IMG/VR virus record: IMGVR_UViG_3300005099_000475
Coordinates: 1-64,000 of that record
DNA from: a virus
Length of the DNA: 64,000 bases
Direction: 5' to 3' (one strand)
Made by a program: the position numbers and the translations under genes. Below the pieces are notes generated by a model. It did not search any database. It worked only from the letters and a program-made list of their open reading frames with translations, and was not told the DNA's origin. Below are positions 853 to 64,000 of this stretch, piece after piece; position 1 is the stretch's first letter; every line of letters begins with the position of its first letter.

Positions 853-1146
853 TCATTTTCTTTTTCTATTCGCGATCTTGGCTGCGATCTTTTTTCCTAT
901 TTCATAAGCTTCGTTCGAATCCATGTTGGGATTCGTTTTCAACAATTTAGCCGCCTGGTAATATGTCATTACTTCAAATGGTTTGAATCCTCTTTCGACG
1001 AATCTTTTTCTCAATTCCTTGTAAACGTCGCTCGGCTTCAACAATTTTTCGATCAAATCCAATTCCGTCTCGACTTCGCGCAACAAAGCTGGATTAAAAT
1101 TATTTCTCTCCATTTTTCTTTGCAATTTCCTTTTTATCCAGCTCAT
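853..1146 (-). CDS. Basic hypothetical protein, 97 aa
   Basis: The ATG overlaps the stop of the 1143-1505 gene (ATGA). The protein is rich in Lys, Arg and predicted helix, with basic residues at both ends. No family recognised. It is the last gene of the operon that starts with the ubiquitin-like protein and ends nine bases before the small-RNA terminator palindrome. Whether it works in that pathway cannot be told from sequence. Confidence 0.7.
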   Translation of the reverse strand: MSWIKRKLQRKMERNNFNPALLREVETELDLIEKLLKPSDVYKELRKRFVERGFKPFEVMTYYQAAKLLKTNPNMDSNEAYEIGKKIAAKIANRKRK

Positions 1147-1505
1147 TTCTCGTCTCCCATCGCGCTTTTTATCTCTTCTAAAAGTTCTTCCTTTTCAACA
1201 CCGTCAAAATACCAAATTACTTCGTCCAAGAATCCGATGTTGAACCAGCTGTCCAAGTAATTCAAAAACGGATTGAAACTATCCGTATCGATTTCAATTC
1301 CTTCTTCAACTAACTTATTTACAATCATATCCATTAAGTTATACATCAGCGAGTGATAAATATCGGCTTCGTTAACATAGTCAAAAACTTCCCTATAATC
1401 TATTTTCAACACATGAGCAACATAAAACAATTGCAGCAACCTTTCCAAATCTCCATAACCGCAACCTAAAAGTTCTGTCAACAGACAATCCTTAATTTCT
1501 TCCAT
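1143..1505 (-). CDS. Acidic hypothetical protein, 120 aa
   Basis: A GGGGGTAAGAAA ribosome binding site precedes the ATG at 1505. The protein is acidic, mostly helical in appearance, with many Asp, Glu, Leu and Tyr. No domain recognised. It lies between the 90-aa gene and the 97-aa gene in the ubiquitin-like operon and overlaps the latter by 4 bases. Confidence 0.75.
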   Translation of the reverse strand: MEEIKDCLLTELLGCGYGDLERLLQLFYVAHVLKIDYREVFDYVNEADIYHSLMYNLMDMIVNKLVEEGIEIDTDSFNPFLNYLDSWFNIGFLDEVIWYFDGVEKEELLEEIKSAMGDEK

Positions 1506-1520
1506 TTTCTTACCCCCTTT

Positions 1521-1793
1521 TCAATTCATTACGTTTCCGTTCAAGCTTACGTATATCTCTTTTACTTCCTTTTCCAACGGCAGCTGGAATATTTTGACGT
1601 TGTTTTCGACGCCGTACTGACTCAGAACGCATTTGATCAGGACGTCGAACGGATCCGTGTTGGCTTTCGCGAACCTCATCACGTTCCAAAACGCGACCGC
1701 GACGCAATGTTTCATCAGGACGAGTTCGAGCAATCGTTCGGCGTATTCTTTCTCCTCTTTGCTGCAACTGAACAAAATCTCGAACAAGCTCAT
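1521..1793 (-). CDS. Hypothetical protein, 90 aa
   Basis: The chosen ATG (1793) overlaps the TGA of the zinc-protein gene and sits after a GGGGGCG binding site. An earlier in-frame start would lie deep inside that gene. The N-terminus is hydrophobic with a Cys (SLFEILFSC), followed by a helical region. No family recognised. Tight packing makes it part of the ubiquitin-like operon. Confidence 0.65.
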   Translation of the reverse strand: MSLFEILFSCSKEEKEYAERLLELVLMKHCVAVAFWNVMRFAKANTDPFDVLIKCVLSQYGVENNVKIFQLPLEKEVKEIYVSLNGNVMN

Positions 1794-2410
1794 CTTGCGC
1801 CCCCTTGGCTTTGACATTTCAGGCAAATTTTCTTTCCATCGCGCGCTTTAACGTAATGTGAGAGTTCCAATTCTCCGCACAATTCGCACTTGACGCATTT
1901 CGCTTTCGCGCACTCTTCACAAACCGGCGCGCCGTCGCACAATCGATGCTCTACCTTGTCTTTCCACATCGCTTTTACACAGGCTACGCATTCAACGCAT
2001 AACTCACCGAAACAATATTCGCAAAGGGGATCGTCGTCGGGATCGCGCTTCGCGTCTTCCCACCGGATCACTTCACCGCAATACGTGTACGTGTCGTAAA
2101 AACAATCCTCACAATAACAATAACCGTTAACCCAAAAAGTGCGGTCGTCGTCGCACCACAATACCCTATCGCATCCGTCGCAACGACAGCAATGCTCGTT
2201 ATAACAACCCTCGCAAAGCGGTTCGTCGCCGGGACCGTACCAACAATCGTCTTCGACCAATCCGCAACCGCAAACGGAACAAGAGAAATCGGGTTCACCC
2301 GCGACCCAACTCCCGCCGTTGTAAATCAAAATCCCGTCGTTTTTTATCACCACTTTGAGGTCGTCTCTCAAATCGTTCTTCCCCAATTCCATCCCGAATT
2401 TGAATCCCAT
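1790..2410 (-). CDS. Cysteine-rich multi-zinc-finger protein, 206 aa (E3 candidate)
   Basis: The start at 2410 follows GGAGGCATAAAA; the upstream in-frame ATG has no comparable site. After about 40 residues the protein becomes a chain of CxxC knuckles (CSVC, CEGC, CDGC, CEDC, CEYC, CVEC, CEEC, CELC, CLKC). Their spacing resembles tandem LIM or treble-clef zinc modules. Zinc binding is well supported by the Cys pattern. Its place directly after the JAB gene in a cassette with UBL, E1 and E2 suggests substrate recruitment or an E3-like role, but that is inference. It could equally be a structural or DNA-binding zinc protein. Confidence 0.75.
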   Translation of the reverse strand: MGFKFGMELGKNDLRDDLKVVIKNDGILIYNGGSWVAGEPDFSCSVCGCGLVEDDCWYGPGDEPLCEGCYNEHCCRCDGCDRVLWCDDDRTFWVNGYCYCEDCFYDTYTYCGEVIRWEDAKRDPDDDPLCEYCFGELCVECVACVKAMWKDKVEHRLCDGAPVCEECAKAKCVKCELCGELELSHYVKARDGKKICLKCQSQGGAR

Positions 2411-2412
2411 TT

Positions 2413-2691
2413 TTATGCCTCCGTTTCCCAACTCTTTTCCCAACTCTTAGTGTATCCTTCCCAATATTCTTCCCAACATTCTTTGCAATACCACTCGCCC
2501 GCCAAAACATGTCGGCGCCCGACGATTTGTCTACCACAACCCGCGCAAACAAAAACGTCCGTCCACCGATCGTCGTCCTCGTATTGATCGTATTTATAAC
2601 ATGAGGTTTTCTTTCGATCGATGTTTTCCAACCCAACGACCTCGACGATTTCCTTTTCCGTCGTGATCTTGACGGGAACCTTTACAAACAA
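2413..2691 (-). CDS. Zinc-finger segment, probably the displaced C-terminus of the JAB protein
   Basis: As it stands this frame starts at an ATG at 2691 with no convincing ribosome binding site. The frame is open upstream to about 2770, overlapping the end of the JAB gene, and there it reads as the missing end of a JAB domain (EGFVDGRYRLKIND, then VKVPVKI). The C-terminal half has CAGC and CKEC about 18 residues apart, a LIM-like zinc module, then a Trp/Glu-rich tail. One extra base in the GGG run at 2736-2738 would join both frames into a 246-aa JAB-zinc protein. Confidence 0.65.
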   Translation of the reverse strand: MFVKVPVKITTEKEIVEVVGLENIDRKKTSCYKYDQYEDDDRWTDVFVCAGCGRQIVGRRHVLAGEWYCKECWEEYWEGYTKSWEKSWETEA

Positions 2692-2705
2692 ATTGTCGTT
2701 AATTT

Positions 2706-3152
2706 TCAGCCGGTACCTGCCGTCGACGAACCCTTCCCTTTCAGTCCATATAGCAACGACACATCGAAGTTCGAGTTAATTGTCCTTTCGTCGTCGTTGC
2801 TGAACGAAGTCAACCCATCTGGATGCCGATGCATAATGCATCGGTATCCTTGTTGGACATACGATTCTAACCCCTCCTTGAAGTCAACCGACGCGGCAGT
2901 GCACTCCTGCTTTGGGATCACGTACTCGTCCTCGACGATTATCCTTCCGCCTTCGAAGTGGAACTTGAACAAAATCGAAAATTCGGTATCGACCTTTGCC
3001 GCCACAGAACTTACAATCGCTCCAACCCTCTCCGGAATCACCACTTCAATCTCGTCCACCACCTTCAAACCGGAATTCCAACTCCCGTTCCCTTTCTTCT
3101 TCTTTTTGATTTTTACCTTGTTATTATTTTGATTGTTCAAAAATCCTATCAT
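2706..3152 (-). CDS. JAMM/JAB-family metalloprotease (deubiquitinase-like), frame broken near its end
   Basis: JAMM proteases are zinc isopeptidases that process ubiquitin-like proteins or remove them from targets. The signature HxH-x7-S-x2-D is present exactly (HRH at 108-110, Ser118, Asp121), with a candidate catalytic Glu at 57. A GGGAGGTG site precedes the ATG. The domain stops early: after residue 140 the sequence turns into low-complexity GSSTAGTG, while the -1 frame continues a normal JAB ending. The gene follows the E2-like gene by about 20 bases. Known bacterial Bil-type operons combine JAB, UBL, E1 and E2 in the same way. Confidence 0.85.
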   Translation of the reverse strand: MIGFLNNQNNNKVKIKKKKKGNGSWNSGLKVVDEIEVVIPERVGAIVSSVAAKVDTEFSILFKFHFEGGRIIVEDEYVIPKQECTAASVDFKEGLESYVQQGYRCIMHRHPDGLTSFSNDDERTINSNFDVSLLYGLKGKGSSTAGTG

Positions 3153-3173
3153 TTTACACCTCCCTCAAATTAG

Positions 3174-3770
3174 TTATTCCCAACTCGAGCTCGTCCAATT
3201 CGTTTGGATCGGCTCGAGTTTGGTTACGTCAATCTTATCGCTGACGAATTCGAAAGCAGAATCGAGATTTACGGTTTTCAGCGACTCGACGAAATCACAA
3301 AAGTTTTTGGCATTGAATTCCAATCCCCTTTCGGCGAAATCCCCGGCGCAAACCTTTCCGTTCATGCTAACGTTTGGATGGAGGTACTCTCCGACGGCGT
3401 AGATCGCGTTCCAATCCATCCGATTGAAGGACAACGCTTCGATCTTGAACGGCGATTCGAACGGAAACCGGTAGATGCGATTTCCTTTCATAAATCTGTC
3501 GGCAACGATGTCAACTTTCGCAACAAGAGAGTCTCCTACTATATCAATATCGAACTTTGATGCGAGTTCGACAACAAAATGCAAAACGTCACAGAGTGCT
3601 TTCGCCTGCGCGGTTTCGACCTCGAATTGCATCTTTCTGATTGTGTGTATATAGCAATAATGCAATCTAATCATTTCGTCGATCAACTTGTCGACTTCGG
3701 GCGGCAAAGCGCCGTAGTATTTCTTATATCCATTCCAATACTCTCTAAACTTTTCCACAAAATTTGTCAT
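3174..3770 (-). CDS. E2-like ubiquitin-conjugating enzyme
   Basis: E2 enzymes carry the activated ubiquitin-like protein on a Cys. Residues 131-141 read HPNVSMNGKVC, which matches the eukaryotic E2 core HPN-x7-Cys with the exact spacing (His131 to Cys141) and the usual Gly before the Cys. The preceding stretch (YRFPFESPFKIEALSF, 100-115) fits the E2 strand with its proline-rich turn. The protein is 198 aa, longer than a minimal E2, with a helical N-terminal 90 residues of unknown role. The ATG overlaps the E1 stop (ATGA), so both are translationally coupled. Confidence 0.8.
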   Translation of the reverse strand: MTNFVEKFREYWNGYKKYYGALPPEVDKLIDEMIRLHYCYIHTIRKMQFEVETAQAKALCDVLHFVVELASKFDIDIVGDSLVAKVDIVADRFMKGNRIYRFPFESPFKIEALSFNRMDWNAIYAVGEYLHPNVSMNGKVCAGDFAERGLEFNAKNFCDFVESLKTVNLDSAFEFVSDKIDVTKLEPIQTNWTSSSWE

Positions 3771-4405
3771 GATCGCACCCCCAACAAATCTAAAATGTGA
3801 TTCACCGTTATCACCTTGTTTTCCTTAATGTGATATTTCGAACTTACAAGATACGACACGATCATAACAGCGATAAAAACGGGTGGGCAAACATAACTCG
3901 GTACATTGTAACGAATTTCCATTCCCGACCGCCAATGCCGACGTTCTTTGGGATTGATTTCAATCGTGATCGAATCGCCGTCATAACCCCCAACGATCGG
4001 GCTCAAATCGGTCCAATGGTCGATCGTGTCCCTGCAGTCGACAAAGACGGGTTTGTAGAACTCACTTTCAATCATTTCTTTCAAGTTATTGTCAAACTTC
4101 TGCGGATACGCAAGCACGTTCAATTTCTTTTCCCCCCTATCCAATCGGATCAGCTCCTTTAACGCGCACGCCTTGTTCAAACCTTCGAAAATTGCCAAAA
4201 ACGGCGTCCGCGCCCGATTCGAGGGGTTGACGACATCGTCGTCAACCAAAATCAAATCATAAATCGGCAATTTGGACAGGAAATATCCTACCCAACTGCC
4301 GACGCCACCGCAACCGATCACGACATAGGTTTTGGGCAAACTCCCCCAAAACCTATCAGGAATTCGAGCAAAAAACTCGTCGTGCGGATTGAATTTCATT
4401 AACAT
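3767..4405 (-). CDS. E1-like ThiF/MoeB-fold activating enzyme
   Basis: This enzyme class adenylates the C-terminus of ubiquitin-like proteins. The Rossmann motif GCGGVGS (31-37) is followed by the ThiF signature DDDVV...SNRAR (55-66). Lys78 sits where the catalytic Lys is expected, and VFVDCRD (120-126) matches the conserved Asp. A VCPP segment near 172 may hold the Cys used for thioester transfer. At 212 aa it is a single-domain E1, closer to ThiF/MoeB than to eukaryotic E1. The start follows GGAGGTGATAAATT. It lies behind the terminator at 4430-4470, so it depends on read-through. Confidence 0.88.
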   Translation of the reverse strand: MLMKFNPHDEFFARIPDRFWGSLPKTYVVIGCGGVGSWVGYFLSKLPIYDLILVDDDVVNPSNRARTPFLAIFEGLNKACALKELIRLDRGEKKLNVLAYPQKFDNNLKEMIESEFYKPVFVDCRDTIDHWTDLSPIVGGYDGDSITIEINPKERRHWRSGMEIRYNVPSYVCPPVFIAVMIVSYLVSSKYHIKENKVITVNHILDLLGVRS

Positions 4406-4429
4406 AATTTATCACCTCCACAATTTTTT

Positions 4430-4470
4430 AAAATAAAAAGGGCCCGATCGAATCAAATCGAATCGGACCC
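4430..4470 (-). terminator. Terminator between the ubiquitin-like gene and the E1 gene
   Basis: On the minus strand a 9-bp stem (GGGTCCGAT with ATCGGGCCC, one G-U pair) spans 4470 to 4440 and is followed by TTTTTATTTT. It begins 15 bases after the UBL stop and ends before the E1 ribosome binding site. No new promoter is visible between them, so E1 and later genes would be made only by read-through. Confidence 0.75.
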
Positions 4471-4484
4471 TTACTTAGGGGGTG

Positions 4485-4721
4485 TTAATAACCCCTTCCC
4501 TTTGGAGCGTTATATGTCCTTAACTCCAAGGTTGTCCCTGCAGGGACATCTTCAAAGTCTTCAGGCTCTATAAGATTGCCTTCAGAATCATACAAATCAA
4601 AAACGGCTATATTGTGCTTGCGGGCTATCTCTTTCACCTTCTCAGGTTTTCTCTCTATCTCATAGATATCCGCACCTACCCTTATCTTTACCTTATTTTC
4701 ATTTTCAACATTCCAGGACAT
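4485..4721 (-). CDS. Ubiquitin-like (beta-grasp) protein, 78 aa
   Basis: The predicted order is strand (KVKIRVGADIYEIE), helix (PEKVKEIARKH), strand (AVFDLYDSEG), and a last strand (TTLELRTY). This matches the beta-grasp fold of ubiquitin, MoaD and ThiS, and the length is typical. The tail is APKGRGY: a Gly followed by one extra residue, so trimming one residue would leave a C-terminal Gly for E1. JAB proteases do such trimming in related systems. It is the first gene of the cassette, with a GGGGG binding site before the ATG. The fold is inferred from pattern and context, not from a search. Confidence 0.75.
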   Translation of the reverse strand: MSWNVENENKVKIRVGADIYEIERKPEKVKEIARKHNIAVFDLYDSEGNLIEPEDFEDVPAGTTLELRTYNAPKGRGY

Positions 4722-4743
4722 TTTAACCCCCTTTTCTTTTTTT

Positions 4744-4794
4744 AGCCCTGCCGCTTTTTGTCTTTCACCCCCTTCCTGCGGCTGTTTTAGGGCT
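4744..4794 (-). promoter_or_regulatory. 5' leader hairpin of the ubiquitin-like gene
   Basis: The predicted transcript starts at about 4795, exactly where an 11-bp stem begins: AGCCCT and GCCGC pair with GCGGC and AGGGCT, with a 6-base bulge. The loop contains AGGAAGGGGGTG, an SD-like sequence followed by an 8-codon frame (GTG to TAA). It could protect the 5' end or form a leader peptide. Confidence 0.55.
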
Positions 4795-4801
4795 AATTAT
4801 A

Positions 4802-4829
4802 AATATATATAAATAAGGTATATAGTCAA
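4802..4829 (-). promoter_or_regulatory. Promoter of the ubiquitin-like operon
   Basis: TTGACT (4829 to 4824), a 16-base spacer and TATATT (4807 to 4802) match the other promoters in this window. It is the only good promoter seen for the genes from 4721 down to 853. Confidence 0.7.
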
Positions 4830-4952: not shown

Positions 4953-5109
4953 CAACGGATCCCGGCGGAAACCGAATCGCGGTCGCGACCACAGACCAAC
5001 CGAACCGACGACACAAACCGAATCCAATCCAATCCAATTCTTAATGCCATGGGCGCACAAGCTTTAATGCCAGAATGTTGCAAGCTTCAATGCCAGAATA
5101 TTACAAGCC
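4953..5109 (+). ncRNA. Putative small or antisense RNA with ATGCCA/CAAGC repeats
   Basis: The interval 4830-5109 holds no supportable gene. Downstream of the promoter it has a GGTCGCGACC palindrome (4982-4991), a short run of CCAAT units around 5020-5040 and three repeat units at 5041-5108. I see no terminator, so the RNA may continue as antisense into the 5110-5769 gene. Similarity of the repeats to those of the RNA at 643-850 is the best evidence that the two form a family. Confidence 0.4.
5041..5108 (+). repeat. Three tandem 22-23 bp repeats
   Basis: Units at 5041-5062, 5063-5085 and 5086-5108 share the pattern TTyAATGCCA...CAAGC. The last two differ at only three positions. The same core occurs in the perfect repeats at 765-836. 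Confidence 0.75.
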
Positions 5110-7157: not shown

Positions 7158-8846
7158 TTGAATTTAAATCTCTTCAAATTACTTTCCGAATCAAATCGAA
7201 AAAATCAGGCTAAGCCAGAAACCATCAAGGGGCTCGTTTGGGAGGCCGAATATAATTTGGAAACGTTCAATTTCAAATTCAAAGGTCACGAAGAAATCTT
7301 TAAAAGATGTGTAGAATTATGTAAGCAATATCCGAGAGGATTCTATCTAAAAGAAGACAAGAAATGGTGTCTTCATTTTCCCATTTATCGATTGGAAAAA
7401 GAAAAAATGAAAGAAATTTGTCGATTATTACAAAATCCGGAAATTCTGAAAAATAACCTCGAAAAAAATGTTCAAAAACTAATTCTTTCTCAACATGATT
7501 ATACTGCGGATTCTTACCCGATTTCCTTCGAACATAAACTTTTCGATTTTCAAAAAGAAGCGATAAATTTTATCTATAACAACTGCGGAAAAGCTCTTTT
7601 GGCCATGACCATGGGAACAGGAAAAACGATCGTCGCATTGGGTTACATAGACAAAGTGGGATTCGACAGAATATTGATAGTTTGTCCGGCTTCGCTGAAA
7701 ATTCATTGGCAAAGGCACATCGAAAGTTGGTTAAAAGAAAAATCTTTCATCGTAAATTCGGGAAAAGACGAAATTCCCGACGAAAGGTTCGTTATCGTAA
7801 ATTACGACTTATTAGTCAAATTGGAAGAACGGCTCAAAGAATACAAACCCGAATTGATTGTATTCGACGAAATTCATTTTATCAAAAACCAAAATGCCAA
7901 ACGTTCGCAAGCGGCAAAAAACATCTCCATCTATTCTCGATTCAAAATCGGACTTACCGGAACTCCAATTTTGAATAGACCTACCGAAATCTGGAATCCC
8001 ATAAAAACCTTGGACGCGAACTTGCTTCCCGGATTTTGGACATTCGCGAGACGATACACATATATCCAACAAACAAGATGGGGAGTTCAATTCATAGGGG
8101 CGAAGAATCTGGACGAATTGAGAGAATTCTTAAAAAAGACGATCGTTTACAGAAAAACATTAGAAGAAATTAGTGAATTCGAACTTCCACCGTTCAAACG
8201 GATTTTGGTTCCGATCCCGAAAACGAAAGCGATGCGAATGTTAGATGAATCTTTACTGAAATCCGTTATAAAAGGCAGATGGACAAGAGAAAAATTTTCG
8301 AAAGTCATGACTTCATTGTCCGAATTCAGGCAGAAAGCATTGGAAATAAAACTGCCGTTCGCGCTGGAATTTGTCGAATCGCTGCTGGAAAACGAAGATA
8401 GAATAGTCATATTTCTATGGCACAAAAAAGCGGTCGAGGCATTGAAGCAATTTTGCAACAAACGTTCGATTCCTTATTCTATCCTGATCGGCGAAACCCC
8501 AATTAAAGCGAGACAAAAAGAAGTCGACAAGTTTCAAAACGGAGAAAGCAAAGTTTTTATCGGAAACATAATCGCTGCCGGAGTTGGACTTCAACTTACG
8601 GCCGCTTCAACGGCGGTCTTTTTGGAAGTGGATTGGGTCCCGGGAAATCTCATCCAAGCGGAAAAAAGACTTCATAGAATCGGAACGAGAAAATTCGTGA
8701 AATTTTACTATTTGGTTTTAGAAGGAACGATAGAGGAAAGGATGATAAAACTTCTAAACAAAAAAGCAGAAATCGCCCACGAAATTTTGGATAAAGATAA
8801 TTTAGGGGATTATGTGAACCTGTTTAAAGAATTACTGGAAGTTTAA
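7158..8846 (+). CDS. SNF2-family helicase/translocase, 562 aa
   Basis: SNF2 enzymes move on duplex DNA; short ones such as SMARCAL1 remodel forks. Walker A (TMGTGKT, Lys156), the DEIH box (237-240), LTGTP and a C-terminal helicase domain ending in AEKRLHRIGT are all present. Residues 25-110 form an unassigned N-terminal domain. The TTG at 7158 is chosen because AAGGGGGTG lies just before it; an in-frame TTG at 7137 would place that site inside the gene. It is an isolated plus-strand gene between two minus-strand blocks. Likely role: recombination or fork repair. Confidence 0.88.
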   Translation: MNLNLFKLLSESNRKNQAKPETIKGLVWEAEYNLETFNFKFKGHEEIFKRCVELCKQYPRGFYLKEDKKWCLHFPIYRLEKEKMKEICRLLQNPEILKNNLEKNVQKLILSQHDYTADSYPISFEHKLFDFQKEAINFIYNNCGKALLAMTMGTGKTIVALGYIDKVGFDRILIVCPASLKIHWQRHIESWLKEKSFIVNSGKDEIPDERFVIVNYDLLVKLEERLKEYKPELIVFDEIHFIKNQNAKRSQAAKNISIYSRFKIGLTGTPILNRPTEIWNPIKTLDANLLPGFWTFARRYTYIQQTRWGVQFIGAKNLDELREFLKKTIVYRKTLEEISEFELPPFKRILVPIPKTKAMRMLDESLLKSVIKGRWTREKFSKVMTSLSEFRQKALEIKLPFALEFVESLLENEDRIVIFLWHKKAVEALKQFCNKRSIPYSILIGETPIKARQKEVDKFQNGESKVFIGNIIAAGVGLQLTAASTAVFLEVDWVPGNLIQAEKRLHRIGTRKFVKFYYLVLEGTIEERMIKLLNKKAEIAHEILDKDNLGDYVNLFKELLEV

Positions 8847-8909
8847 CCTAATTATAAGTGATCCTCCTAAAACCTATTTAGTAATCTATTCTCTTTTCCA
8901 AGAATTCTT

Positions 8910-9818
8910 TTACTTCCAATAAATCTTATCTTTTCTTATTTCCATTATTCCTATATCCTCAAAAATCGGACAAATTCGAAATATTCTGGGGGAAATTTTG
9001 TATCCCCAATACCATTCAGGACCGTTAGCTTTATCATAAAATTCCTTTGAATTATCAAATCCAAAATCTTTGATTATCTTTTCGTCCACGATTCTCTTCC
9101 AATACTCATAATCATTAGAACGAGCTAAATAAATGTATTTTTCAGCCGGATGGGAAAGAAAGCTAAATGCTTTAATGCCAGCGAATGCCAAGCTATTGGT
9201 CGCAGCTTCCGAACAAAATTCTCTTTTCTTATCTATATCCTTATGTTTCTTAAAAATGTCCAAAAAAGGACCTAAAACAAACCAAACCAAACCAGCCAAA
9301 GAATAAGCTTCTTTTCCTTTTCTTTGCTTCCAATATAAATCTATTTTTTCCTTGGTTTCCTTGGGAACTTTAAGTAATTTTAAATATACTCTTGTATTGA
9401 TATAATTTTCAAAAATATTTTCTTTTTTAACTTTTGGCCAAGTAGCAGAAATCATATTTCCAACCGATGTACAATCTTTCCTACTTAAATGTTTATTTAC
9501 CTTTAATTCATCTATTAATTCTGATAATCCTTCCGGATTCAACGAATAACCGACATGAGTCGCCCTTCCCCATGTTCGCAACTGGATCAATAACTGTAAT
9601 GGCATGAATCTTTTTATGCCCAAAGGTTCAAAAACCAAATAAATCACTTCGGTTTTATGAATTTCATCCGATTTATCTCTGACATTCGTTTTGCTTTTTA
9701 GCGGTGTTGAATGTAAAATTTCCCAACACTCTTTGCATAAATAACCATAATAAGGGGACCATTTCAAATCCTTGGTTATCAAACCGCAGCAATAACATTC
9801 ATCGTTTCTCCTAACCAT
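8910..9818 (-). CDS. Putative permuted NlpC/P60-like cysteine peptidase with N-terminal zinc finger, 302 aa
   Basis: The N-terminus has CYCC and CKEC (residues 8-31), a zinc finger. Further on, ATHVGYS supplies a His and EFCSEAATNSL a Cys, in the order seen in circularly permuted papain-like proteins (YiiX type: His first, Cys later, then a helical segment). The assignment rests on these two motifs only. It overlaps the M15 peptidase gene upstream by 8 bases, so both may act on the cell wall, or this one on lipids or host proteins. Confidence 0.45.
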   Translation of the reverse strand: MVRRNDECYCCGLITKDLKWSPYYGYLCKECWEILHSTPLKSKTNVRDKSDEIHKTEVIYLVFEPLGIKRFMPLQLLIQLRTWGRATHVGYSLNPEGLSELIDELKVNKHLSRKDCTSVGNMISATWPKVKKENIFENYINTRVYLKLLKVPKETKEKIDLYWKQRKGKEAYSLAGLVWFVLGPFLDIFKKHKDIDKKREFCSEAATNSLAFAGIKAFSFLSHPAEKYIYLARSNDYEYWKRIVDEKIIKDFGFDNSKEFYDKANGPEWYWGYKISPRIFRICPIFEDIGIMEIRKDKIYWK

Positions 9819-44928: not shown

Positions 44929-45624
44929 TTATGCTATTTTGGCAATACTAAAATATGTCCTCGTTGAGCCATTAACAATATTACAATCGGCTTCTGGATG
45001 GACATAAAACTCCAGGTAGTCCCCTGCTGAAAGGTGAATTACAAATGTCAAGACCACACTTTGCCAGCTTGGATCAGCGGAGTTTAAGAAGGAGTCTCTA
45101 TATGTAGTTCCATTCTTTTGACATATAACATACACGTTATATGACGAAGGAAGAGAACTCACGGTCACGTTAGTACTTACAAGATACAGTCCATCCTCTG
45201 TAGCTGTAAACCTATGCCCAGTAGTATCAAACTCATTATGCGGATCTGAACCACTTTCTACACTGTCAAAAGGAATTTTAACAGTATTGCCTGCAGTAAC
45301 TGAAAAGTAGCTTCCTCCATTATCCATCCACCCTACTACCCAACTCTGTCTTGGCAACTTCACAATCCCCGAAGTTGCCACAGAGAGCCATTTGTTGCCT
45401 GACATGTAGGCGTCAATAGCACTGGAAGTGCTAAGAGGAAGCATGTCGGGGTTGTGGGCTTCGTTGCCATGAGTGGCAGGTGTAGGTTTAACTTCCACCC
45501 AAGAAGTACCGTTGTCATAATAAAGCTTTCCAGTATCAGTAGCGTAGAAATATCTATCCTTCGTCCCAGCGGCGGGCCTGTTGGCCTCTGTGTCTGCCGT
45601 GACCCGGGCGACCCCTAACGTCAA
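44929..45624 (-). CDS. Tail fibre, C-terminal part (frame-shifted), C1q-like
   Basis: Begins with RVTADTEANRPAAGTKDRYF, a widespread fibre linker, and ends in a C1q/TNF-like beta domain (FTATEDGLYLVS, GDYLEFYVHP). It has no start of its own; it continues the 45554-45895 frame if one A is dropped from the plus-strand AAAA at 45623-45626. Confidence 0.8.
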   Translation of the reverse strand: MTLGVARVTADTEANRPAAGTKDRYFYATDTGKLYYDNGTSWVEVKPTPATHGNEAHNPDMLPLSTSSAIDAYMSGNKWLSVATSGIVKLPRQSWVVGWMDNGGSYFSVTAGNTVKIPFDSVESGSDPHNEFDTTGHRFTATEDGLYLVSTNVTVSSLPSSYNVYVICQKNGTTYRDSFLNSADPSWQSVVLTFVIHLSAGDYLEFYVHPEADCNIVNGSTRTYFSIAKIA

Positions 45625-45895
45625 AATCTTTGGCTTCCCAAACAGAACTTCCTTTCACCAAAATTTGTGTTTCAGTCGCGGACGGCAAAACCTGTTCCAA
45701 AGTCTTAGCAACCCATTTGCCTTGGGAATCATCAAACTGTATTAAAACCTTGTCGGGAAGCGCGTCGACATCCCACAAATCTTGATGTTTGGCCAAATAG
45801 TCGTTCAATTTTTGCATGTTGGCGGAATGGACGGCGTTCCATCCCGCCTGTCCGTAATCGGTGGTTTCGAGCTGCGTCGGATTCAAAACGCTCAT
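45554..45895 (-). CDS. Tail fibre, N-terminal part (frame-shifted)
   Basis: GGAGACGAAAA precedes the ATG at 45895. The first 90 residues form a typical fibre base (YGQAGWNAVHSANMQKLND); the last 25 are the wrong frame. Joined to the downstream part it would give a fibre of about 321 aa attached to the J-like protein encoded just upstream. Confidence 0.75.
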   Translation of the reverse strand: MSVLNPTQLETTDYGQAGWNAVHSANMQKLNDYLAKHQDLWDVDALPDKVLIQFDDSQGKWVAKTLEQVLPSATETQILVKGSSVWEAKDFDVRGRPGHGRHRGQQARRWDEG

Positions 45896-62406: not shown

Positions 62407-63145
62407 TAGACGACTCCTTAACGGCAAAAATCACCGTTTTGCCCGCAAAAACATAATCTTTCGCTTCGACTTTTGGCAAAAGCTCAAAAGGCTTGTTTTG
62501 AGGAACAATTAACAAGCCGTAACTTCCCCAACAAACGAATTGCATTCTTTGTCCTTGATGAAAGACGTCCCCTTCGCGACAAAAATCCAGCAAGGCGTCG
62601 ACGTCTTTGTCGGCGACCGAAACCACAACGACATCCAATCCGTTCAAAAAGTCATATATTTCATAAATCTTCGTCTCGTTCCGATAAGCGAATTTGAAAC
62701 TGTCCGCTTCGATCTTATTTTTCAGAAGTCCCGCTTCAGCAGCTATCATAGAATCGTTGGCCGTGAGAAGAGATGGAAGCCAATCTATTCTTCTTAAATA
62801 TCCAGTAACTGGAAACCGCCCCAAATGAACCGAAAAAGCAGTAAGAAAGATTCCGCAAACATAACATTTACATTGAAGTTCTCTATCGAGAATTTCATTT
62901 ATAGTGTATTTTCCACCCTTAACATCGAACATATCTTCTGTCGGGTCATAAAGTCCAATGTGAGTTACAATTCCATCAAAAGGAGCGTATATCCAATTAG
63001 GTTTTTGATAAGCGACCCTAATTGGCATTCGATTAAACCAAACTTCAACGAATTCTCTTGTGGAAACAGAATTCAGCTTCTTAAAATCTTCAGTTTTCTT
63101 CCACTCAGATATAGTTAAAGGTTCCCAAAAGTTTTTACTTACCAT
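62381..63145 (-). CDS. Phosphatidylserine decarboxylase-like protein, 254 aa
   Basis: The short-type PSD pattern is visible in order: APFDGIV (54-60), KGGKYTINEIL (77-86), SVHLGRFPVTG (105-115, matching DVHVNRAPVSG), YRNETKIYEI, and FHQGQRMQFVCWGS (195-208, matching GQRxGMIRFGS). PSD proteins cut themselves between Gly and Ser; Gly207-Ser208 is intact. The Asp of DVH is Ser here, so the chemistry may be altered or lost. It lies between the intein-bearing gene and the prohead protease, where portal genes normally are. Unknown role: lipid modification or a self-cleaving virion protein. Confidence 0.65.
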   Translation of the reverse strand: MVSKNFWEPLTISEWKKTEDFKKLNSVSTREFVEVWFNRMPIRVAYQKPNWIYAPFDGIVTHIGLYDPTEDMFDVKGGKYTINEILDRELQCKCYVCGIFLTAFSVHLGRFPVTGYLRRIDWLPSLLTANDSMIAAEAGLLKNKIEADSFKFAYRNETKIYEIYDFLNGLDVVVVSVADKDVDALLDFCREGDVFHQGQRMQFVCWGSYGLLIVPQNKPFELLPKVEAKDYVFAGKTVIFAVKESSNGKEKRTA

Positions 63146-64000
63146 ATTTAGACCATTCCTTCATTGGGAGTCTATCTATATAGTTCAGTCTCGATGCCAC
63201 GCAGCTCAACGCAGCCCCGAATAAATAGAACTGAGAAACATCAAATAAAATTAAATCATATCCGTTTTCGGCAGAAATTTCTTCAAGAACATCAATCTTT
63301 TTTCTCTCTATTTTCCACTCTTCAGAATTAGGCTCAAACAATTCTATATAAGTTCCAGCTAAAATCTTATAACCTACTGGTATATTGTTTGTTATACAAA
63401 ACTCGCCTAACGCAGCATCTTCTATAGGAATTATCTCAGCAAATCTTTCAAGTTCTTTAAGAGCTTTTTTATCTGCGGAAGGAATAACCACCATTACTTT
63501 GGTGGGGGAAATGGGACAAAATATGGTGTCCCCGTGATAAGAATTTGAACTGATGCAAACACACCCATTCCTTCGAACTACTAACAAATGATATTTGGGA
63601 ACAGAAACATCATAAAATTCTTCATTAGATACTCTCTCAACTTCGAGATTCTCCCTAACACAACCAGTGCAGTAAGTTTTGTTATAATCAATATCAACTA
63701 CATATTCCTCAAGGTTTCCTAAATAGTTTATACTATTAATTCTAAATACTTTTCTTACTTTGGAACGAAGTCCACATTTGACACATAGTTCCTGAACATC
63801 ATCTGCTAATTGTTTTGAACAAGTATAATAAGTCATTGTGTAACAGTTATACTCTTTTTTCCTTCGATAATCGAACTTCCTTATTCTCTTATCACCATCA
63901 CCTTTAACCAAAATCTCAACAAACTCCCTTATAGTCTCTGAAGATGATAGCTTAATGAATAAAGGAACTCTCTTCGAACGTGAAGTTTTACCACAATTCG
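63135..64000 (-). CDS. Intein-containing gene, C-terminal part, cut by the window edge
   Basis: The frame is open from the right edge of the window (64000). From 64000 to about 63543 it reads as an intein: a LAGLIDADG-type block (EILVKGDGD, then YTMTYYTCSKQLADDVQELCVKCGL), then the C-terminal blocks FYDVSVPKYHLLVVRRNG and CISSN, with Ser as the first residue of the C-extein. The usual penultimate His is Ser. The C-extein (63542-63135) is not recognised. By position the host gene could be the portal or terminase, but nothing in the visible part proves it. Confidence 0.75.
   Translation of the reverse strand, partial: NCGKTSRSKRVPLFIKLSSSETIREFVEILVKGDGDKRIRKFDYRRKKEYNCYTMTYYTCSKQLADDVQELCVKCGLRSKVRKVFRINSINYLGNLEEYVVDIDYNKTYCTGCVRENLEVERVSNEEFYDVSVPKYHLLVVRRNGCVCISSNSYHGDTIFCPISPTKVMVVIPSADKKALKELERFAEIIPIEDAALGEFCITNNIPVGYKILAGTYIELFEPNSEEWKIERKKIDVLEEISAENGYDLILFDVSQFYLFGAALSCVASRLNYIDRLPMKEWSKYGK

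Follow-up and report, generated by a model that had tools for sequence, protein, structure and literature searches.

A putative phage-encoded ubiquitin-like conjugation and deconjugation pathway in a tailed-phage genome

The first 64 kb of the 70,273-bp IMG/VR virus record IMGVR_UViG_3300005099_000475 (hereafter the window) carry, at their left end and on the minus strand, a block of genes for a ubiquitin-like protein (UBL), an E1-type activating enzyme, an E2-type conjugating enzyme, a JAB/JAMM isopeptidase and a Cys-rich protein, followed by three small genes that run down to position 853. In bacteria, the conjugation of ubiquitin-like proteins is best known from anti-phage defence, and here the pathway would belong to the phage itself. 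Window proteins match a head protein, head protease, tape measure, tail proteins, DNA polymerase A, a DnaB-like helicase and SbcC in PHROGs, and outside the window the same record also shows portal- and terminase-like proteins; the source is therefore a tailed phage. Its nearest phage matches are remote (about 26% identity for the DNA polymerase), and no close phage relative was found. An earlier note on this DNA had read motif sets of the UBL, E1, E2 and JAB from one strand, and all four are present at the places it gave, on the minus strand.

The E1 (3767..4405, minus strand, 212 amino acids (aa)) has a ThiF fold with the motifs GCGGVGS and DDDVV..SNRAR and the residues GxGGxG, D55/D57, N63-x2-R66, K78, D126 and C173, the last of which aligns with the PRTRC cysteine. 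It matches ThiF (PF00899) at an E value of 8.5e-9 and is the sole cassette protein above the Pfam cut-off. The family check that the earlier note had proposed thus succeeded for ThiF, gave a weak Prok-JAB match for the JAB (0.024), and returned nothing convincing for the E2 and UBL. Because only the E1 passed this cut-off and the E2 and UBL were without a convincing match, hidden Markov models (HMMs) were built from phage relatives alone, without the window, and scored on the 784 stop-to-stop open reading frames (ORFs) of at least 40 aa in the window. These models recovered the E1 at 4.4e-36 (next ORF 1.3) and the JAB at 1.9e-28 (next ORF 0.79), two values that are not fully independent because some relatives had been collected with the window E1 or JAB motif, and the E2 at 6.8e-8 (next ORF 0.91), which is independent since the relatives were not found by any E2 search. 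In a maximum likelihood tree the window E1 and seven phage E1s form one clade (support 98/96), separate from 14 PRTRC-type and 4 crAss-type E1s, with the exact place of the window E1 inside the phage clade unsure because of long branches; identity to the E1s of relatives is only about 30%. Among PADLOC models, those for E1-E2 alone match the E1 convincingly, over its ATP-binding core.

The E2 (3174..3770, minus strand, 198 aa) has the core H131-P132-N133-x7-C141-x-G followed by NLDSAF, and so combines an HPN motif with a candidate catalytic Cys. That HPN-x7-Cys lies within one protein, as had been claimed, was confirmed, with C141 as its cysteine; the six frames of the window contain this string a single time, where 0.03 would be expected from shuffled ORFs. 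The E2 has no convincing family match in Pfam or NCBIfam. When an E2-family profile was run against 177,635 PDB sequences, only E2/UBC proteins appeared at E values up to 1 (best 0.3). The AlphaFold model has a core with a predicted local distance difference test (pLDDT) of about 90 over residues 81-110, and at least 80 to about residue 170. Structure prediction, which the earlier note had also called for, served the E2 in part: the top 15 Foldseek matches in the PDB are all ubiquitin-conjugating enzymes, at weak scores. These matches are suggestive of a UBC fold. Scans with single proteins (E1 in viral and genome collections, E2 in the viral collection) found no relatives, nor did an E2 pair alignment in viral and genome collections; the E2 DNA pattern HPN-V-x3-G-K/R-C-x-G had no match.

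The UBL (4485..4721, minus strand, 78 aa) ends in PKGRGY, with Gly77 followed by Tyr78. It has no sequence-family match in Pfam or NCBIfam. Its AlphaFold model (pLDDT 74) gives the predicted beta-grasp, strand-strand-helix-strand-strand with a free tail, and its Foldseek matches in the PDB are mostly ubiquitin-like folds, including the bacterial Ubl structures 8tyz and 8tyx. The protein thus joins a ubiquitin-type fold to a C-terminal Gly. Across the phage sets, the UBL termini have a Gly at or near the end (RG-Y, RG, AG, EG-AL, TG-AA and SG-AAC).

The JAB carries the residues expected of a JAMM metalloprotease, with the motif HRHP..F-S-x2-D, and E57, H108, H110, S118 and D121 are invariant in the alignment of JABs (A14). 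A comparison of the A14 profile with a second JAB alignment, A1, was discounted, as A1 includes the window sequence. The earlier reading of a JAMM protein with HxH-x7-S-x2-D therefore stands for its residues, while a change of frame had been overlooked. In the 5' part of the gene (2706..3152, minus strand) the conserved portion reaches SLLYG and a stop follows 13 residues on. The -1 frame (2413..2745, minus strand) continues with EGFVDGRYRLKINDNLFVKVPVKI and a CxxC-x16-CxxC ribbon; the earliest start codon listed for it, a TTG, falls inside the strand, and the JABs of two relatives (L040 and L043) run in one frame throughout, with a similar C-terminal zinc ribbon. It is thus probable that a one-base frameshift has split the gene and that the -1 frame holds its remainder, a reading that falls short of proof because the HMM score did not rise when the parts were joined. 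A DNA methyltransferase gene (29182-28369, minus strand) is split likewise, with PF01555 positions 1-65 and 61-221 in two frames, and a tail protein (44929-45895, minus strand) is seemingly split over two overlapping frames near 45.6 kb. These two cases favour assembly indels over programmed frameshifting or decay, and an assembly indel is the likely cause of the JAB frameshift. A real pathway now decaying in this phage would also explain the one-base change, but it is improbable, since the split methyltransferase in the same window points to sequence error and the E1, E2 and downstream genes are intact.

Sets of this kind recur in uncultured, mostly large phages of several lineages. A search with the window E1 and PRTRC-type E1s led to phage loci L024, L025/L026 and L027; the gene order is UBL-E2-E1-JAB in L024, L025 and L027, and UBL, E2, JAB, E1 in a further locus, L031. 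The JAB DNA pattern HRHPxGx3FSx2Dx3IN hit nine loci, on contigs whose lengths span about 64 to 242 kb; eight of the loci encode a JAB of this kind without interruption and share the signature (L036-L041, L043 and L044). Where adjoining genes could be read, they include an E1 (L038-L041, L043, L044), an HPN-type E2 (L039, L040, L043, L044) and UBL candidates (L038, L044), so that E2, E1, JAB and a UBL candidate stand together in L038/L039 and L044, and E2-E1-JAB in L040 and L043. The four E2s share the pattern HPN..C-x-G..N-x-D-S-[AS]-Y, and catalytic residues are conserved in alignments A11, A13 and A14. The metagenomic sets (L024, L025/L027, L038/L039, L040, L041/L044 and L043) resemble that of the window and have E1s of the same clade; their E2s and JABs are mostly larger, and their UBLs barely alignable. 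Among 50,697 phage records, the E1 of L043 has no match and that of L025 two partial matches, so that the E1s of this clade that were tested are almost without counterparts in isolate-phage records. The window is not the only case of a phage UBL pathway, as phages also carry PRTRC-like or crAss-type components, mostly annotated as hypothetical or thiamine proteins; the new part is the compact clade with an HPN-type E2. A search of the open literature returned no description of phage-encoded E1-E2-UBL-JAB sets, which is weak evidence of absence. Two further observations concern these contigs. L040 has a second set (8339-9742) of a 190-aa E1, an 84-aa UBL-like protein ending in TGAA and a 203-aa E2 with HPN-x8-C, and the L024 contig, which also carries a UBL set, has a Type-P5 twister ribozyme at 143-201.

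The dedicated HPN-x7-Cys E2, in the window and in relatives, bears on whether the UBL, E1 and JAB might instead serve sulfur-carrier chemistry of the ThiS/MoaD-ThiF type, for thiolation or in a cofactor pathway. The E1 and UBL folds are common to ThiF/ThiS and the candidate catalytic Cys of the E1 varies across the clade, but the E2 speaks against such chemistry, and no rhodanese or sulfur-metabolism gene was noticed adjoining the set; we regard it as very unlikely. Genes of this type should not be annotated as thiamine biosynthesis, as has happened in several phage records.

The Cys-rich gene (1790..2410, minus strand) starts 2 nucleotides (nt) after the stop codon of the -1 frame and encodes 206 aa with 28 Cys and nine CxxC motifs. 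In L031, and only there, a single polypeptide holds an E2 (YVHPVVSEGKLCLGD) followed by Cys-rich CxxC repeats, and a UBL, JAB and E1 are encoded next to it. An E2 and a Cys-rich protein that are fused in one phage and encoded by adjoining genes in another suggest joint action, and by this analogy the Cys-rich protein may be a partner of the E2, perhaps E3-like or an adaptor. The argument is one of architecture, because similarity between the window protein and the L031 fusion is not significant (BLASTP E 0.10) and the L031 E1 belongs to a different clade.

The earlier note had compared the block with Bil-type operons; membership of the window set in that system is not supported. Bil systems have tandem UBLs in BilA, a CEHH motif in the E2 (BilB), and two adenylation modules plus a Cys domain in BilD (PMC11354881). 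The window resembles them in having a UBL, E1, E2 and JAB within one locus; however, its UBL is a single beta-grasp of 78 aa, its 212-aa E1 is a single module in place of an inactive and an active adenylation domain with a Cys domain, and its E2 has HPN instead of CEHH, with E at +6, G at +8 and A at +13 from the Cys where Bil has E +6, H +8 and H +13 (PMC11354881). The set is, moreover, phage-encoded. These differences also tell against a counter-defence role, in which the set would imitate or sabotage a Bil-like or CBASS-type conjugation system of the host, for example by capping its enzymes or stripping the tag from virions. Bil conjugates UBLs and thereby disturbs phage assembly (Hor 2024, going by its title as cited in PMC13373217), and a JAB and UBL would be apt tools for opposing it. 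A full E1-E2-UBL set is nevertheless more than competition would require, none of its components is a close match to Bil, and nothing points to a matching system in the host; we consider this role unlikely.

Other known systems differ in their own ways. The PRTRC type, which occurs on plasmids and in some phages (type 6d operons of Iyer 2006), likewise has a small UBL and separate E1, E2 and JAB genes, and its E2 shares a P-x-N-x7-C-x-G core with that of the window (hhalign P 0.0025, 19 columns). The PRTRC E2, however, lacks the His of HPN (PMC1779556), its alignment keeping N, C and G; of the PRTRC NCBIfam models only PRTRC_ThiF responded, at E 0.095 and 12 bits against a cut-off of 144.75; ParB and the PRTRC E/F partners had no match at the window set; and the E1 lies outside the PRTRC clade (98/96 for the phage clade, on long branches). 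A nearly complete PRTRC set, with genes C, B, A, a ThiF-like gene and one more, was seen in the isolate Burkholderia phage BgVeeders33 (L009). In Bub, JAB and E1 are fused (BubCD), whereas those of the window are separate genes; the single chain of BubCD 9ea4 is matched by the E1 profile and, at only E 0.59, by the JAB profile. The gp76-gp79 cluster of phage crAss001 also encodes a UBL-like, an E2-like, a JAB and a ThiF protein, but its E1 falls in another clade and its UBL and E2 were assigned by eye from motifs alone. Eukaryotic ubiquitin E2s (UBE2D) share the HPN-x7-C spacing and make up the majority of the E2-profile matches in the PDB, at E 0.3 or worse, with the rest of the sequence unlike the window E2. 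Phage tail clusters are known to carry a UBL and JAB (PMC1779556), as in the TAPI/TAPK pairs, and a tail-assembly unit of this kind might be proposed. The tail cluster of the window lies about 40 kb off, its genes (about 42-62 kb) include a free-standing NlpC-like protein with no UBL noticed there, the pairs (Iyer 2006, row 5) are without E1 or E2, and several relatives adjoin replication or recombination genes, all of which makes a tail-assembly role highly improbable.

We therefore regard a ubiquitin-like conjugation and deconjugation pathway, acting during infection, as the probable function of the block. This reading draws on the recovery of E1, E2 and JAB by large margins with HMMs from other phages, the beta-grasp fold and near-terminal Gly of the UBL, the conserved catalytic residues, the co-location of the sets in phages, the E2-profile matches that are all E2s, and the L031 fusion. 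The proposal that the phage owns the UBL, E1, E2, JAB and Cys-rich protein as one functional unit gains support from relatives that keep the set together. Several points weigh against the pathway reading. The UBL was missed by the HMM of UBLs from relatives, the UBL candidate of L044 is without a clear near-terminal Gly, C173 of the E1 is replaced in L040 and L025, the E2 fold matches are weak (Foldseek E 0.043 and up, TM about 0.25-0.34), the JAB frame is broken, and no substrate is pointed to by the evidence.

If the pathway operates as its residues suggest, the JAB would trim the terminal Tyr78 of the UBL to expose ...KGRG, and the E1 would adenylate Gly77 through its GxGGxG/D/N-R/K/D site. 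The UBL would then pass to Cys141 of the E2, possibly directly from the adenylate, as the C-terminal Cys of the E1 is not kept in all relatives. The E2, with its eukaryote-like HPN, would join the UBL to amino groups (lysines) on target proteins, to which the adjacent Cys-rich zinc protein probably guides it, and the JAB, probably with its zinc ribbon, would remove the UBL again. The most likely use would be the modification of host or replication proteins in infection. Genes near the sets of relatives encode a sliding clamp, clamp loader, SbcCD, topoisomerase and helicase; the SbcD- or SbcC-like genes lie downstream of the set in L040, L041, L043 and L044. Such neighbours make replication or recombination proteins a reasonable first guess as targets, although they may do no more than signal a region of early genes. 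We put forward tentatively the possibility of a lineage confined to phages, not derived from Bil, CBASS or PRTRC, in which complete pathways with HPN-type E2s and E3-like Cys-rich partners tag host or phage replication proteins during infection. A pathway owned by phages raises the questions of what is tagged, whether the link between E2 and zinc protein amounts to an E3-like step, and where non-eukaryotic HPN-type E2s originate.

The block had been described as one unit behind one promoter with 4-base overlaps, which holds in part. ATGA overlaps occur at three junctions only (E1/E2, Cys-rich/next gene and the last gene pair), while the E2-JAB junction is a 21-nt gap. Upstream of the UBL there is a promoter-like site, TTGACT-16-TATATT (4802..4829, minus strand), with 10 of 12 consensus matches; the region has 25 such sites against 18 in shuffles, little excess, so that this one counts as a consensus match only. 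The UBL 5' leader holds a hairpin (4741..4797, minus strand; AGCCCU..AGGGCU with GCCGC..GCGGC; free energy (dG) -18.4, z -2.7), which matched no Rfam family. Between UBL and E1 lies an intrinsic-terminator-like hairpin with a T-run (4431..4472, minus strand; arms AAGGGTCCGATTC..CGGGCCCTTTTTATTTT; dG -22.6, z -3.7). The interval from it to the E1 start, about 30 nt, is too short for a promoter; as the hairpin parts the UBL from the E1, the block is not one simple operon. Read-through past the hairpin would yield much UBL and less enzyme, with the tag in excess.

Downstream of the Cys-rich gene are a 90-aa gene that overlaps it by ATGA (1521..1793) and a 120-aa gene (1143..1505), both without a convincing family match, and a 97-aa gene (853..1146) with an ATGA overlap to the 120-aa gene and sub-threshold matches only, all on the minus strand. 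Two 42-nt direct repeats (AAAAGCTATATGCCAAGGGCCTGCAAGCTT) have diverged counterparts across the gene block (753-836 and 5023-5103). At the far end of the window, an open frame (63135-64000 and on to position 5186 of L002) between the portal-like and head-protease genes contains an intein-like insert (CYDSKTEILTLDGW ... VCISSNS).

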